Assembly: GCA_947494565.1 (NCBI GenBank)
Contig: CANLVG010000001.1
Coordinates: 682,001 to 746,000, forward strand
Length of the DNA stretch: 64,000 bases
Source of the DNA: an uncultured Flavobacteriaceae bacterium
GTDB taxonomy: Bacteria > Bacteroidota > Bacteroidia > Flavobacteriales > Flavobacteriaceae
Direction: 5' to 3'
Shown: one piece after another, positions 919-63,370 of the stretch
Numbering within the stretch: the stretch's first letter is position 1
Layout: each line of letters opens with the position of its first letter
Notes under the pieces: generated by a model
Database searches by the model: none
What the model saw: only the letters and a program-made list of their open reading frames with translations
What the model was told of the DNA's origin: nothing
Program-made: the position numbers and the translations under genes

Positions 919-2129
919 GTCTCCAAAAAATCACGTTTCAAAATAAAGAAGGGCAGACTCTTGTCGGCAGATTAGAACTACCCGCAGATCAACATCCGCA
1001 TAACTTTGCCATTTTCGCGCATTGTTTTACGTGTAACAAAAATCTCTCAGCGGTACGGAATATAAGTCAAGCCCTCACTTCAAAAGGTTTTGGGGTACTG
1101 CGTTTTGATTTTACAGGATTGGGTGAAAGCGATGGCGATTTTGAGGATACCAATTTCTCCGGTAATGTAGAGGATCTAGTTGCCGCCTCAGACTACCTAG
1201 AAACAAATTACAGCTCCCCCACCCTTCTTGTTGGGCATTCTTTAGGAGGTGCTGCGGTTATCTTTGCGGCGTCCAAGATCGCTTCGGTAAAGGCCGTAGC
1301 AACTATCGGAGCCCCATCAAATCCGAAACATGTACAGCATCTGTTCAAAAGTCGATTGGATGAAATTGAAGCATCCGGTAAGGCCGTAGTGAATTTGAGC
1401 GGTCGGGACTTTACGATCAAAAAGCAATTCTTGACCGATTTAGAATCGAAATCCCTTCCGGAAACCGCTCAAGGTTTGCGAAAGGCCTTGTTGATCATGC
1501 ATTCTCCACAAGATGACACTGTGGGCATTAAAAATGCCGAGGAAATCTATGTGGCCGCACGTCATCCGAAAAGTTTCGTTTCCATTGATGGTGCGGATCA
1601 TTTGCTAATGAACAAAAGTGACTCGGTCTATGTCGGTCGGGTTATCGCCGGATGGGCGCAACGTTATGTTGAAGTTCCTGAGGGATCATCATTGAAATCA
1701 CAACATCAGGTAGTGGCAAGTTTAGATGCCGAAGATGGCTTCACTACAACCATGAAGGTGGGCAATCACTATATGGTCGCAGATGAACCGACTTCCTTTG
1801 GAGGAAACGATTTTGGACCTTCACCCTATGAATTGGTTTCGGCAGGTTTGTCGGCTTGTACGGCAATGACCGTGCAGATGTATGTGCGGCGAAAGAAATG
1901 GCCCTTGGAAACCATTGAAGTGCACACGTCATACGGAAAATCACATGCTGAGGATTGTGAGGACTGCGAATCGGATAAAGCGAAAATCGATACCTTCCAT
2001 CGGGAAATCAAACTGACCGGAAATCTAGACGAAAAACAAATTGCCCGTATTTTAGAGATTGCCGATAAATGCCCTGTTCATAGAACATTACATAGCGAAA
2101 CACAGGTCATCACCAAACTCATACGTTAA
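915..2129 (+). CDS. alpha/beta hydrolase fused to OsmC-family domain
   Basis: A two-domain cytoplasmic protein of 404 residues. Residues 1-250 are an alpha/beta hydrolase with nucleophile elbow GHSLGG (Ser109), a likely acid at Asp200/201 and His229. Residues 265-404 are an OsmC/Ohr-type domain with the two redox cysteines expected of peroxiredoxin-like OsmC proteins, Cys315 (in SACTAM) and Cys386 (in CPVHR). OsmC proteins reduce organic hydroperoxides; the hydrolase half may act on an ester or lipid substrate, but no substrate can be deduced. This fusion is recurrent in Bacteroidota. It starts inside the stop codon of the upstream DUF2490 gene, which implies translational coupling. Confidence 0.88.
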   Translation: MSLQKITFQNKEGQTLVGRLELPADQHPHNFAIFAHCFTCNKNLSAVRNISQALTSKGFGVLRFDFTGLGESDGDFEDTNFSGNVEDLVAASDYLETNYSSPTLLVGHSLGGAAVIFAASKIASVKAVATIGAPSNPKHVQHLFKSRLDEIEASGKAVVNLSGRDFTIKKQFLTDLESKSLPETAQGLRKALLIMHSPQDDTVGIKNAEEIYVAARHPKSFVSIDGADHLLMNKSDSVYVGRVIAGWAQRYVEVPEGSSLKSQHQVVASLDAEDGFTTTMKVGNHYMVADEPTSFGGNDFGPSPYELVSAGLSACTAMTVQMYVRRKKWPLETIEVHTSYGKSHAEDCEDCESDKAKIDTFHREIKLTGNLDEKQIARILEIADKCPVHRTLHSETQVITKLIR

Positions 2130-2130
2130 C

Positions 2131-2270
2131 AATGAACAGTAAACAGTAAACAGTTGGCAATGAGCAATGAACAGTGAACAGTGAACAGTGAATAATAATC
2201 AATGACCAATGATCAGTTAGCAGGGAACGGTTTGCAATAAACAATGATCTCTTAACTGTGACCGCTGAAC
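2131..2270. repeat. array of 20 degenerate heptanucleotides
   Basis: Starting one base after the stop of the hydrolase-OsmC gene, the sequence divides into twenty consecutive 7-mers with no phase break. Examples are AATGAAC, AGTAAAC, AGTGAAC, AATGACC, AGTTAGC and GCTGAAC. By my reading position 3 is T in 19 of 20 units, position 7 is C in 19 of 20, and position 1 is A in 16 of 20, giving the consensus A-R-T-G-A-A-C. The array runs through the GTG start at 2258, so it overlaps the first codons of the next gene. It is not a CRISPR (no spacers) and not a perfect microsatellite. Confidence 0.85.
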
Positions 2271-26972: not shown

Positions 26973-28274
26973 ATGACTTTTAAAGAACTGGGGCTCGCCG
27001 AGCCCATTTTAAAGGCCCTCGAAAACGAGGGTTATAAATCTCCGACGCCCATTCAAGAACAAGCAATTCCCATCTTGCTCCGGGGCAAAGATCTTCTCGG
27101 GGTCGCCCAAACCGGTACGGGAAAAACCGCCGCTTTCGGTATTCCTATTCTACATCATCTCTATGAAGGTATTAGCCTTCGTCAAAACAAACGCATAGTA
27201 CAAGCGCTAGTGGTCACTCCTACACGTGAGTTGGCCATACAGATCGGAGAAAGCCTAACGGCCTATGGCAGACATACCGGTTTACGAAATACCGTAATAT
27301 TCGGAGGTGTGAAACAGGCCCAGCAGGTAAGGGCTCTTCAAAAAGGTGTCGATATCTTGGTGGCCACTCCAGGTCGGCTACTTGATCTTATGGACCAAGG
27401 CTACATCTCTTTTCATCACTTGAAGTTCGTGGTACTTGACGAGGCGGATCAGATGCTTGATATGGGATTCATACACGACATCAAAAAAATCATCGCGAAG
27501 CTTCCTCCTAAAAGGCAATCGTTATTCTTTTCGGCTACTATGCCGAAAACCATTGTGGAACTTTCCCGCAAAATGCTCGGCGATTTTGAACGGATTACCA
27601 TCAAACCTGAACAGGCTACCGCCGAAAGAGTCGAACAGGGTGTTTATTTCGTCAGTAAAAAAAACAAGCCTAAATTATTGGCACACCTCATTAACGAGCG
27701 ACCCAAGGATTCGGTTTTGGTATTTTCACGTACCAAGCATGGTGCCAATAAAATAGTAAAGAAATTGGGACAGGCGGACATTCGAGCTGCCGCCATTCAT
27801 GGCAACAAGAGTCAAGCCGCGCGCCAAAAGGCCCTAGGAAGTTTTAAAGCAGGTGCCCTAAAGGTACTGGTGGCTACCGATATCGCCGCTCGGGGAATCG
27901 ATGTGGACGAGCTATCCCTCGTCATTAACTATGACTTACCGAATATATCCGAAACCTATGTGCACCGTATCGGGAGAACCGGACGCGCTAGCGCAAGTGG
28001 AATTGCCCTTTCATTCTGCGATAAGGAAGAACGACCCTACCTCAGGGATATCGAGAAGCTGATCAAACAAGAGGTGCCACGGATGCCCGAACACCAGTTT
28101 GTAGACGAAGAGGATACGAAAGAAGCGCCTCAACAAAAACAAAGACCTTCTGAAAATAAGCCCTCATCGAGTTCCGATCATCGCAATCGAAATAGAAATC
28201 GAAATAGGAACAGAAATCGCAATAGAAATCGAAGGCGAAACAACAACCAAAGTAATCAGGGCAACAACGACTAG
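26973..28274 (+). CDS. DEAD-box RNA helicase (RhlE-like)
   Basis: A 433-residue ATP-dependent RNA helicase. The Q-motif region [10 protein letters not shown], Walker A AQTGTGKT (45-52), PTRELA, TPGR, DEAD (156-159), SAT (187-189), RGIDV and HRIGRTGR are all present and in order. The C-terminus after about residue 390 is a low-complexity Asn/Arg tract encoded by a run of near-identical AAT-CGA/AGA codons. Such tails bind RNA non-specifically and probably assist in ribosome assembly or mRNA turnover. Convergent with the permease gene, with a 14-bp gap. Confidence 0.93.
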
Positions 28275-51842: not shown

Positions 51843-51959
51843 TGTAAATATTCACGTTTACAAAACAAAAAAAATGTAAACGTATTCATTTACAAATATA
51901 CTAAAAAGTCAATACATATGTTTACAAAAAAATAAAAAAGTAAACTTACATGTTTACTT
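51843..51959. promoter_or_regulatory. operator cluster upstream of mobile mystery pair
   Basis: Two operators have identical layout: TGTAAA-N8-TTTACA at 51843-51862 and at 51875-51894. A perfect AAGTAAAC/GTTTACTT palindrome lies at 51938-51959, and there is a single TGTTTACA at 51919-51926. All are built from the same half-site and lie just before the XRE regulator gene, so they are probably its binding sites. Confidence 0.7.
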
Positions 51960-57441: not shown

Positions 57442-57539
57442 ATCACTACTTTGACTTAAACGCAAGGGACGCAAAGTTTACGCAACGAACGCTAAGTATC
57501 GGTTTCTAATGTCTATTTGATCCTTTTAAACTCTGCGAT

Positions 57540-59841: not shown

Positions 59842-59939
59842 ACCTCATCAATTAAGAAATGATTTTTTCCAATGAATATAAGTCTTTCCAAATCATATTA
59901 AGTATATTCCAAGCAGGAATCTACTATTTAAAATTTGAT

Positions 59940-60545
59940 ATGAGCTGGATTACAACTATAGATTTCGAAAAGGCCCAAGGAAAATTAAAGCGCCTCTACA
60001 AAAGAGTCAAAGGCCCCAATAACAATGTGGACAATGTGTTGAAAATACACAGTCTACGGCCGCATACCCTGGAAGGACATATGGCGCTCTATAAGGCTGT
60101 GCTACATCATTCCGGAAATTCATTGCCCAAATGGTACTTGGAAGCTTTAGGCGTTTATGTCAGTCATCTGAACCACTGTGATTATTGTTTCGACCATCAT
60201 CTTGCAGGACTCCAGCGGTTATGGAACGATGATGAGAAATCAAAGCGCTATGCAAATGCCGTTACAAATGATGTGCTCGATACGTTCTTCGATGCGAAAC
60301 TTTCACTTGGAGCTAGCTATGCCAAAAAATTGACCTTAAGAGTTCAAGAAGTGGTCAAATCGGATTTCACAACACTCAAAGATGTGGGATTCTCCGAGGG
60401 TGAAGTATTGGAAATCAATCAAGTAGTGAGCTACTTCAATTATGTCAACCGAAGCGTCATCGGTTTGGGTGCGACCACGGCGGGGGATGTTCTAGGCCTC
60501 TCCCCCAACCAAAACGACGAGCCAGACAACTGGGGGCATTCCTGA
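59940..60545 (+). CDS. AhpD-like carboxymuconolactone decarboxylase family protein
   Basis: A 201-residue helical protein of the peroxidase-related CMD family. The redox motif CDYC (Cys80 and Cys83) and the following His86/His87 are as in AhpD-type alkylhydroperoxidases, preceded by the expected helix (YVSHLNH). ATG 59940 is chosen because the longer frame has no conserved N-terminus. Probably defends against peroxides. The long heptad array follows directly. Confidence 0.86.
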   Translation: MSWITTIDFEKAQGKLKRLYKRVKGPNNNVDNVLKIHSLRPHTLEGHMALYKAVLHHSGNSLPKWYLEALGVYVSHLNHCDYCFDHHLAGLQRLWNDDEKSKRYANAVTNDVLDTFFDAKLSLGASYAKKLTLRVQEVVKSDFTTLKDVGFSEGEVLEINQVVSYFNYVNRSVIGLGATTAGDVLGLSPNQNDEPDNWGHS

Positions 60546-60977
60546 ACGTTATGCGCTTTCGCTATGCGCGATACGCTGTTCGCTGTTCGCGATACGCCGT
60601 ACGCCATACGCTTTACGCACGACATCGCGCTTCAAGCTACTGAGAACATACTTCTGAATTCTCAATTCTGAATTCCTAACTGCTGGCTTTTGGCCCTTGG
60701 TTGCAGGCTTTTCGCTATTCGCCTTACGCTATACGCTTTACGCACGTCATCGAGCTTTGTGCTTCAAGCTACTGACAATATACTTCTGAACACTCAATTC
60801 TGAATTCCGAACTGCTGGCTTTTGGCCCTTGGTTGCTGGCTTTTCGCTATTCGCCTTACGCTATACGCTTTACGCACGTCATCGAGCTTCGAGCTACTGA
60901 CAACATACTTCTGAATTCTGAACTCATAACTCCAACTCCTAATTCCTAACTCCTAACTCCTAACTCCTAACTCCTAT
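60546..60977. repeat. long heptanucleotide lattice with drifting words and larger tandem copies
   Basis: About 430 bases read as 7-mers. CGC begins every 7 bases nine times in a row from 60560 to 60616 (CGCTATG, CGCGATA, CGCTGTT and so on). Later units drift through words such as CTTCTGA, ATTCTGA, GCTTTTG, GCTATTC and GCTTTAC, and end in TCCTAAC repeated at 60937-60970. A block containing TTTACGCACG, GCTACTGA and ACTTCTGA occurs three times with spacing of about 125 and 132 bases. No coding potential. Confidence 0.85.
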
Positions 60978-60980
60978 AAA

Positions 60981-63143
60981 CTATAAATTATCCAATTGAT
61001 TGCTGCTCTTATCGTCACTGATGGTCCAGAAGAAGCCGACGACAAAGAAGGCATCTGCAGTGGGTCGTATCGCACGTCGATCGAAAATACCATCCATATT
61101 AGGCGCATCGGCATATTGATAGCCATTTACGTTTTGGAATCCTGTAATATTGCTTACCGAGAAGAACAGTATTTTCTGTTGTGAAATCAAATAGGCCCAA
61201 TTCACGTTCAGGCTGTTGAACGGTCTGGTCTTTTCCGCTAAAAATTCCGGTGTATTCGGATTGTCATAGGGGCGACCTGATCCGTAGTTATAGGATACAC
61301 CGATCTGCGAACGCCAATCTTCGACCCAATACTTCGTCACCAATGAAAGGCTGTGTGTCGGTGCAAAGTTTGGAGTGGCCCGTTCGGAGAAGTCTCGATA
61401 ATCACGCTCTGTATTCAAATAGGAGTACGACGCCCAATAATCCAAGTTCTTGATACTCTTATTATCACGCCAGAAAAAATCGATACCTGTGGCATAACCA
61501 CCACCTAGATTACTGAATTGCGAATCGAATTGAGGCATTTCGGTATCGAATTTGACGAGTCCGTCATAGTCTTTGTAGTAGGCTTCGGCACGAAAGGTTT
61601 TGCCGTCGGATAAATACTGATAGTTCAGAATGTAATGCGACGTTTTCTCGAAATCCAAACTACGGTCGAACTGTAACGATTCCGCCAAAGGATTTTGGTA
61701 GAAATCCCCATACGCTAAAGAGAACTGTCCCTTTTCGCTGCTTTTGTATGCAAGAGAAAGACGCGGTGCGATATTTGAATCTTCCAAAAAGCTTGAATAT
61801 TCACCCCGTACACCAAGCTTCATGGCAAATTTGTTACTAAAGAAAATATCGGCCTCGGCAAAACCTGCACTGAGGTTATCGTTAAAGCCTGATTCAAATG
61901 TAAAACCATCGGGTGCAGTAAATATATTATCATAATTGGTCCTAAAGTGCTCCGCTCCGAAATTCAGTTGAAACCGACTATTAAACGTCTTCTTTAATTT
62001 CAATTTTAAATGTCCGGCTGTTTCGTTGGCTTCGATATCATTGACGTCAAACGCGATGTCATTCCGATCGGAAGAAACACTTACCCCTGCCGTCATCGTC
62101 CATTCCTTATCAAAAAAGTGCTTGTAGGAAGTATTTGCATAGAGATTGCTGTTTTTTAGGCCAAAGTTGACAAACTCGTCAAAATTGATATCCTCTTGGT
62201 CAAGATTCAGGTTCGCCTGATTGAAGCCTGTGTAGAATTTGAACATTCCCTTATCGGTCTTACTTCGAAACACGGCCTCTCCTGAAATAGACTCGTAGGG
62301 TTTATTCCAACGGGCACCCTGTTCATTGGGTATAATCCATTGATAGGGCGCTAAGTTGATGTATTGGGCATTGACACTCAGTGATTTATCACCCCAAATT
62401 TCGGTCTTCCCCAACCCTGCTCCTACCGAAAGTACGGAGATATCGGTTTTCTCTTGATCCGGTTCGTCTGTGGTGTTCAATAGCAATACACTGGAAAGTG
62501 CTTGCCCATATTCAGCGGAATAGCCTCCAGTACTAAAGGTGATTCCCTTGAATAAAAATGGAGAAAAGCGACCTCGGGTGGGAATATTATTCGCTGTAGC
62601 GTTAAAAGGTTGAAAGACACGAAGACCATCAATAAAGACCTGCGTTTCCCCTGCTTGTCCCCCTCGAACGAACAAACGCCCATCTTCACTAACCGTTGAC
62701 GTGCCGGGTAGGGTTTGTAAAGCGCCGACGAAATCACCTGCCGCCCCTGCCGTTGTAACGATATCCAAGGGTTTTAAGACCGATACTTTTGAATTGTCTC
62801 CAGCTTGAAAGCTCCCGGCCGTTAAAGTGACTCCCGTCAATTGATTGATCGCTTCGGCAAGTTCGATTTTCAAATCTTTGAGATACGAAATGTCACCTGC
62901 TTGCATATAGGTATCGAATCCGACCATCGAGACGATTAAATTTTGGGTTCCGGTTTCTGTGGTTTCAAAAGTGAATCCTCCCTTTGCGTCTGAGGAGGCC
63001 CCATCGTAGGTACCGTCCAAATAAATATTAGCCCCTTCGATCGGATTTCCTTTTACATCCGTCACTAGACCAGATATGGTCGTTTGCGAAAGGCTGATCA
63101 AGGTGTAAAAAAGACAGGTAATAAGTAGAATTTGATTTTTCAT
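60981..63143 (-). CDS. TonB-dependent receptor with carboxypeptidase-like N-domain
   Basis: A 720-residue outer membrane receptor. Signal peptide to about residue 20, a carboxypeptidase D regulatory-like domain (about 24-100: TISGLVTDVKGNPIEGANIYL), a TonB plug (about 120-225: PLDIVTTAGAAGDF, RLFVRGGQAGETQVFIDGLRV) and a barrel of about 480 residues. ATG 63143 begins the signal peptide. No SusD partner is beside it, so it is probably not a polysaccharide uptake system; iron or a small molecule is likelier. Divergent from the DUF2141 gene. Confidence 0.9.
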   Translation of the reverse strand: MKNQILLITCLFYTLISLSQTTISGLVTDVKGNPIEGANIYLDGTYDGASSDAKGGFTFETTETGTQNLIVSMVGFDTYMQAGDISYLKDLKIELAEAINQLTGVTLTAGSFQAGDNSKVSVLKPLDIVTTAGAAGDFVGALQTLPGTSTVSEDGRLFVRGGQAGETQVFIDGLRVFQPFNATANNIPTRGRFSPFLFKGITFSTGGYSAEYGQALSSVLLLNTTDEPDQEKTDISVLSVGAGLGKTEIWGDKSLSVNAQYINLAPYQWIIPNEQGARWNKPYESISGEAVFRSKTDKGMFKFYTGFNQANLNLDQEDINFDEFVNFGLKNSNLYANTSYKHFFDKEWTMTAGVSVSSDRNDIAFDVNDIEANETAGHLKLKLKKTFNSRFQLNFGAEHFRTNYDNIFTAPDGFTFESGFNDNLSAGFAEADIFFSNKFAMKLGVRGEYSSFLEDSNIAPRLSLAYKSSEKGQFSLAYGDFYQNPLAESLQFDRSLDFEKTSHYILNYQYLSDGKTFRAEAYYKDYDGLVKFDTEMPQFDSQFSNLGGGYATGIDFFWRDNKSIKNLDYWASYSYLNTERDYRDFSERATPNFAPTHSLSLVTKYWVEDWRSQIGVSYNYGSGRPYDNPNTPEFLAEKTRPFNSLNVNWAYLISQQKILFFSVSNITGFQNVNGYQYADAPNMDGIFDRRAIRPTADAFFVVGFFWTISDDKSSNQLDNL

Positions 63144-63370
63144 GATTGTTCGTTTCTGATGTTCTTTTTGTTTGATGAAGCAAAAATGCGAACAGAGAAG
63201 ACCGTAGGGAAAACCGTTTGACCGAACTGTAAATTTTAGGGGGTGAATTGAAGGAAAAAAATGAAGACACAATTCAGTAGCAAAAATCAACAATTCGGTT
63301 AGATGCATTTCAAAAGGCAGACATACCACCGCATCTTTGGGTCATAATTAATCACTAAAACAAAAACATC

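Follow-up and report, generated by a model that had tools for sequence, protein, structure and literature searches.

A compound lattice of drifting 7-nt words fills the gap between two convergent genes in a flavobacterial genome

Heptamer repeats have been described, mostly in intergenic DNA, in Bacteroidetes, cyanobacteria, Beggiatoaceae, Xanthomonas and Geobacter. The cyanobacterial STRR, reportedly described by Mazel in 1990, presumably match the array considered here as well. The passages on repeats in MacGregor 2015 (PMC4679880) describe TAACTGA and other heptamer direct repeats in Beggiatoaceae, Cyanobacteria and Bacteroidetes, those of the BOGUAY genome being mostly short sets of one word placed just before start codons. 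The sections concerned in Rehm 2015 (PMC4692102) deal with the GGGNATC and GGGGAYT heptamers of Xanthomonas and Nostoc, which are G-rich and quadruplex-forming; most of them are flanked by the same genes in two Xanthomonas and vary in length and sequence. In Geobacter metallireducens, according to the part of PMC2700814 devoted to them, heptanucleotide elements include a class 3 with the consensus MTYCTGA; 15 of the 16 sites have five copies, and they are proposed to be sites for a global regulator. As for the unit itself, the LSSR of Mrazek 2007, as retold in PMC4679880 and PMC4692102, have 7 nt as the commonest long unit in most genomes, with polymerase slippage as the proposed cause, and an idea cited in Rehm 2015 is that 7 nt mirrors the polymerase contact length; nothing on period 7 was found in the relevant pages of Huang and Mrazek 2014 (PMC4060949).

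The window analysed here, a stretch of 64,000 nt, corresponds to C1:682001-746000 of the 5.39-Mb genome of an uncultured Flavobacteriaceae bacterium (G000, 45 contigs). One array in it lies outside genes and occupies all of the DNA separating the stop codons of two convergent ORFs, and a second heptad lattice is present elsewhere in the window:

2128..2247, plus strand: second heptad lattice, with AACAGTG/CAATGAA words, between ORFs 915-2129 and 2258-2788
59859..60545, plus strand: flanking ORF with a weak likeness to carboxymuconolactone decarboxylase, below the Pfam cut-off
60546..60980, no strand assigned: compound heptad lattice with a lag-7 signal, the whole 435-nt gap between the two convergent stop codons
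60553..60622, plus strand: CGC-type words (CGCTATG, CGCTGTT, CGCCATA, CGCTTTA), read from the sequence
60651..60678, plus strand: CTTCTGA/ATTCTGA words, read from the sequence
60679..60712, plus strand: GCTTTTG-type words, read from the sequence
60713..60844, plus strand: block copy 2, 132 nt, one 7-nt unit longer than copies 1 and 3 in the block alignment
60845..60921, plus strand: block copy 3, partial, from the block alignment and the Tandem Repeats Finder period of 132
60922..60976, plus strand: run of ACTCCTA (TCCTAAC) including the 6-nt unit at 60929-60934, from the sequence and Tandem Repeats Finder
60981..63329, minus strand: convergent flanking ORF, TonB-receptor-like (CarboxypepD_reg, Plug)

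Other tandem repeats in the window are an A-rich one of period 32 (about three copies, 51843-51957) and two short ones at 57460-57497 (period 20) and 28180-28233 (period 12).

Within 60546-60977, identity at lag 7 was 0.593, against a mean of 0.263 (sd 0.022, maximum 0.339) in 500 dinucleotide shuffles, which bears out the heptad lattice of about 430 bases claimed in an earlier note on this DNA; identity decayed to 0.505, 0.477, 0.438 and 0.370 at lags 14, 21, 28 and 35. The autocorrelation check proposed there, at lag 7 and at lags 125-132, gave peaks at 7 and, for the blocks, at 132 (0.673), 257 (0.594) and 125 (0.560), and Tandem Repeats Finder returned a period of 132 with 2.6 copies (60582-60915) and a period of 7 with 8.1 copies (60921-60976), so that the repeated blocks of about 125-132 nt stand as well. 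The words follow in the order that had been given, from CGC to CTTCTGA/ATTCTGA and GCTTTTG, then the block again and finally TCCTAAC. That all units measure 7 nt was largely right, lag 7 scoring highest among lags 4-10 in every one of the 57 windows of 35 nt, and wrong for one 6-nt unit, ACTCCA, seen by eye at 60929-60934. Neighbouring 7-nt units are unlike at 169 of 417 positions; the TCCTAAC end is near-perfect (90% matches), and the rest of the array does not consist of near-perfect copies of one word. Neither block length, 132 or 125, is divisible by 7, yet the two are 7 apart. Aligned pairwise, block copies 1 and 2 show 12 substitutions over 125 positions plus a single 7-nt gap; for copies 2 and 3 the figures are 9 substitutions over 86 positions and again one 7-nt gap, and for copies 1 and 3, which align without a gap, 13 substitutions over 86 positions. 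Alignment rows that contained the partial copy k3 (gaps 49 and 42) were left out.

On the strength of the published heptamer repeats, mostly intergenic and spread over several bacterial groups, the array is classed with the known intergenic heptamer repeats of bacteria, of which it is a compound variant, and the opinion that no standard repeat class explains it was mistaken. With the repeats treated in the repeat-related parts of PMC4679880 it has in common the 7-nt unit, the intergenic position, the mixing of heptamers in larger assemblages seen in some Bacteroidetes, the shorter gaps without obvious repeats in close relatives and the contigs that end in repeats. In contrast to the BOGUAY sets, it holds several words in one lattice between two stops, together with 132-nt block copies, and where TAACTGA regulatory repeats have their word a few nt before a start, its words are others and lie between two stops. 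The Xanthomonas and Nostoc repeats, in the sections of PMC4692102 mentioned above, share the 7-nt unit and a mostly non-coding position, but the words of the window array lack regular G runs; inspection of both strands by eye found GGG only in the minus-strand AAGGGCC word, once per block. The Geobacter consensus MTYCTGA, as given in the part of PMC2700814 on these elements, covers both the CTTCTGA and the ATTCTGA words, but the window array is long and drifting.

The array is best explained, with a probability of about 65%, by slippage duplication of 7-nt units combined with point mutation and block duplication in an unconstrained intergenic gap. Single units would be gained or lost by slippage or local misalignment, point mutations between duplications would alter the word and so make it drift along an unbroken 7-nt lattice, and stretches of 125-132 nt would then be duplicated by unequal exchange, as the three copies suggest. 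Because a gap between convergent stops should tolerate any length, the array could grow there with the genes untouched. The repeated expansion and mutation of a heptad put forward in the earlier note fits, since units resemble each other most when adjacent and less the farther apart they lie, and since the block copies are told apart by substitutions and one 7-nt indel. We take the array to be unconstrained spacer DNA, presumably neutral, on which selection may still act; slippage as the event, like any reason for the number 7, is something we infer.

A constraint preserving length, also claimed earlier, is not required and in a strict form is rejected, given the 6-nt unit here and the non-7 units and gaps of sister arrays, whose lengths differ by 1, 3, 6, 12 and 16 nt besides 7 and which can take on an 8-nt period. 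For example, the sister array on C3 of the same genome contains two additional 8-nt units as well as gaps of 1, 6 and 7 nt, and that on C10 has gaps of 7, 12 and 3 nt (a terminal 48-nt gap excluded). A lag other than 7 scores best in 5 of 71 windows of the C3 array and 9 of 48 of the C10 array, compared with 0 of 13 in the second array of the window (2128), 0 of 28 in an array of G004, and 1 of 25 and 0 of 20 in two arrays of G005. At L037:1383-1434 (G000 C3), a heptad lattice turns to an 8-nt period (GAATTTCA) within a 163-nt block repeat. The window array's own evidence for in-register drift is its unbroken lag-7 signal across several words. In-register word change is nevertheless a wider property than this array alone: in 16 pairs of successive runs of clearly different words, at most 45 nt apart, drawn from the loci sampled and the window, the observed phase ranked 1.31 (chance 3; Wilcoxon p = 0.003), with an in-phase distance of 3.88 of 7 and an off-phase distance of 5.17, the pairs coming from at least six genomes, not all of them independent, and none out of the window array. 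A limited literature search found no account of such in-register drift over several words.

The gaps at the same junctions were compared in relatives, all of them other species. The ORF at 59859-60545 was matched in 20 of 59 genomes, G000 included and some matches weak, and the convergent gene pair is kept in five congeners; beyond these, no other of the 12 congeners with a strong ORF match keeps the pair, and they were excluded, as was G007, where the receptor gene lies on the opposite side. The stop-to-stop distance is only 7 nt in G011 and 8 nt in G008, G001 and G010 have lattice-free gaps of 66 and 85 nt, and the 201-nt gap of G004 is a lattice of other words, ACTTCGT/ACTTTGT. At the second junction (2128-2247) the arrangement recurs in three congeners, of which G008 and G006 are without a lattice and G013 carries related words, GTTGTTC, on the strand that carries GAACAGT words in G000, and so in the opposite orientation; not counted were G002, G007 and G010, where the two genes are arranged differently, and G004, G005 and G011, where the neighbour is missing. 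For a third junction, on C3, the gene was present in one other genome of 14, G013, and the gap there holds no lattice. Over the three junctions, two of nine same-arrangement congener gaps thus hold lattices, with other words, and seven hold none. Lattice gaps made up 15 of 1383 in the samples, and the binomial chance of two in nine works out at 0.0076 if the rate is taken as 1.5%, or 0.013 if it is taken as 2%. This recurrence counts somewhat against the preferred account but is only suggestive, because the three junctions are not random draws and G013 and G008 are each counted twice. It points to hot spots or to old arrays whose words have turned over, two readings that look alike in these data.

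Heptad arrays of this kind occur at many loci of G000. In 1.65 Mb sampled, comprising the window, 800 kb more of G000 and 786 kb from eight other genomes, most of them chosen because they carry heptads or are relatives, there were 25 lag-7 regions (four of them in the window, itself selected for its array) versus 2, 3, 6, 1, 1, 3, 3 and 0 at lags 4, 5, 8, 10, 11, 13, 16 and 17; lag 14, a harmonic of 7, gave 21. At a stricter threshold, lags in multiples of three, counted in the G000 set only, gave 3, 7, 3, 4, 3 and 5 regions at lags 3, 6, 9, 12, 15 and 18 versus 13 at lag 7. Among 656 kb from 80 named loci, mostly of Proteobacteria and scored at lags 5, 7, 8, 10, 11 and 13, lag 7 had no region, and lags 8 and 11 had one each. 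This dominance of 7 is left unexplained by slippage alone.

Heptad arrays are also a likely source of some assembly breaks in G000, where several contigs have a start or end at or close to a perfect heptad array, as expected of long variable repeats. Five of the 22 contig starts checked (C1-C22) lie inside a lattice, namely C3, C4, C12, C13 and C15; none of the four contig ends fetched (C1, C2, C3 and C6) does, and pattern matches show that C8, C10, C14 and C16 end inside perfect heptad arrays or no more than 33 nt from one. Some contig ends carry the same word and may be neighbours in the genome.

The words of different arrays were compared on one random window per array, after removal of the 10 of 42 candidate arrays that lay inside long ORFs; at seeded loci, only arrays separate from the seed were added (13). 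The resulting 45 intergenic arrays fit the pattern RYTNYWN (pyrimidine strand, letters read off printed frequency tables) better than dinucleotide-weighted column permutations (0 of 100 as good). The corresponding figures were 0 of 100 for the 22 arrays of G000, which may be mutual copies and so inflate the test, and 3 of 100 for the 23 arrays of other genomes. Before the extra arrays were added, the counts were 0 of 100 for all 32 arrays together, 1 of 100 for the 17 from G000 and 26 of 100 for the remaining 15. Training and testing across genomes gave mean z values of 1.56 and 2.56 with mean p of 0.128 and 0.048 (0.095 and 0.029 with unweighted permutations). Within G000, then, words are related among arrays beyond composition and dinucleotides, a likeness that slippage alone leaves unexplained, and there is weak evidence for a word pattern common to different genomes. 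Support for a universal heptad vocabulary across the phylum is weak. As an exact triple, GCTWTAC occurred in 3 of 395 genomes, G000 included, with 2 of 395 for the reversed control, and the triple TTCTGAA in 6 of 395, G000 included, with 1 of 395 for its control, the G000 copy being a word run within a long ORF (L210, G000 C2:150847-150867). Five successive GCTNNNN units matched in 8 of 12 chosen genomes, exceeding the reversed control in seven and equalling it in G007 (5 and 5), while G408, outside the eight, had 0 matches against 14 for the control; five ACTNNNN units matched in 11 of 14 genomes of the genus, G000 included (above control in eight, below in two, equal in one), matches inside one array not being independent in either count.

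The relatedness of words across G000 arrays also fits another reading, unlikely on balance, in which whole compound arrays spread by copying from one gap to another, through ectopic conversion or a mobile-like process, and only then are homogenised and mutated locally. That arrays can also be copied whole is indicated by two alike compound arrays in adjacent gaps of G005 (L275:90-293 and 1728-1898, about 1.6 kb apart), a point against the preferred account: they align over 109 and 104 nt (overlapping alignments) with 82.6% and 82.7% identity and have the same word order, one being AAGAGCC-rich and the other AAAAGCC-rich, and each stops at the start of a long ORF. Against this reading, a second full copy of the window array was sought in G000 and rejected, the 26 other matches spanning at most 57 nt, and no terminal motif or flanking duplication was noticed in the sequences read by eye.

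By analogy with what has been proposed for TAACTGA, the heptads could instead serve as arrayed sites for a protein of the S1, Csp or Csr type that binds RNA or DNA, with the lattice maintained by selection. The weak shared RYTNYWN pattern and its cross-genome z values would agree with this, as would the survival of the lattice phase through word changes, but the seven lattice-free gaps, the variation of words and strand orientation between species and the position of the window array between two stops, not ahead of a start, make it quite unlikely. More of a long shot is a dedicated error-prone copying activity that lays 7-nt steps in intergenic gaps, keeping the step and not the word. If it existed, the lattice would be the footprint of an enzyme, words would drift because each unit is imperfectly copied from the preceding one, and heptad-rich genomes should have the responsible polymerase or repair factor in common.

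The location between convergent stops might point to a terminator acting in both directions, or to a structured RNA where the two genes end, but this is highly improbable. The only structural hint at the window array was the minus-strand fold (z -1.81; 3 of 100 shuffles equally good). The plus-strand fold stayed within the shuffles (z -0.83; 26 of 100), no inverted repeat of at least 10 and no terminator-like site (0.7 expected) were found in the array, and a terminator or hairpin was rejected on these grounds; an RNA family was rejected too, as the window gave no Rfam match at gathering scores. One promoter-like site was found, with 1.3 expected. By eye, the G230 arrays L285, L300 and L323, unlike the window array, have inverted halves that could pair into long hairpins, which would favour a structural role for some arrays. 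An assembly artefact is scarcely credible, for although the assembly does break in other heptad arrays, this locus has intact neighbours and lies within a contig of 820 kb, and arrays of like kind occur in separate genomes, one of them in the same gap; the copy number of the 132-nt block in the assembly could be wrong.

Slippage, mutation and block duplication in a tolerant gap remain our preferred account of this compound variant of a known repeat class, to whose study the phase test, and one gap seen both filled and nearly empty within a genus, are new additions. A single genus shows one gap filled in one genome and nearly empty in others, one gap with differing words, and arrays that record in-register change. 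With such filled and nearly empty gaps and compound arrays in one genus, comparison and passage could serve to measure how heptad arrays arise and turn over, and the few related genomes compared here suggest that heptad repeats appear and change fast.
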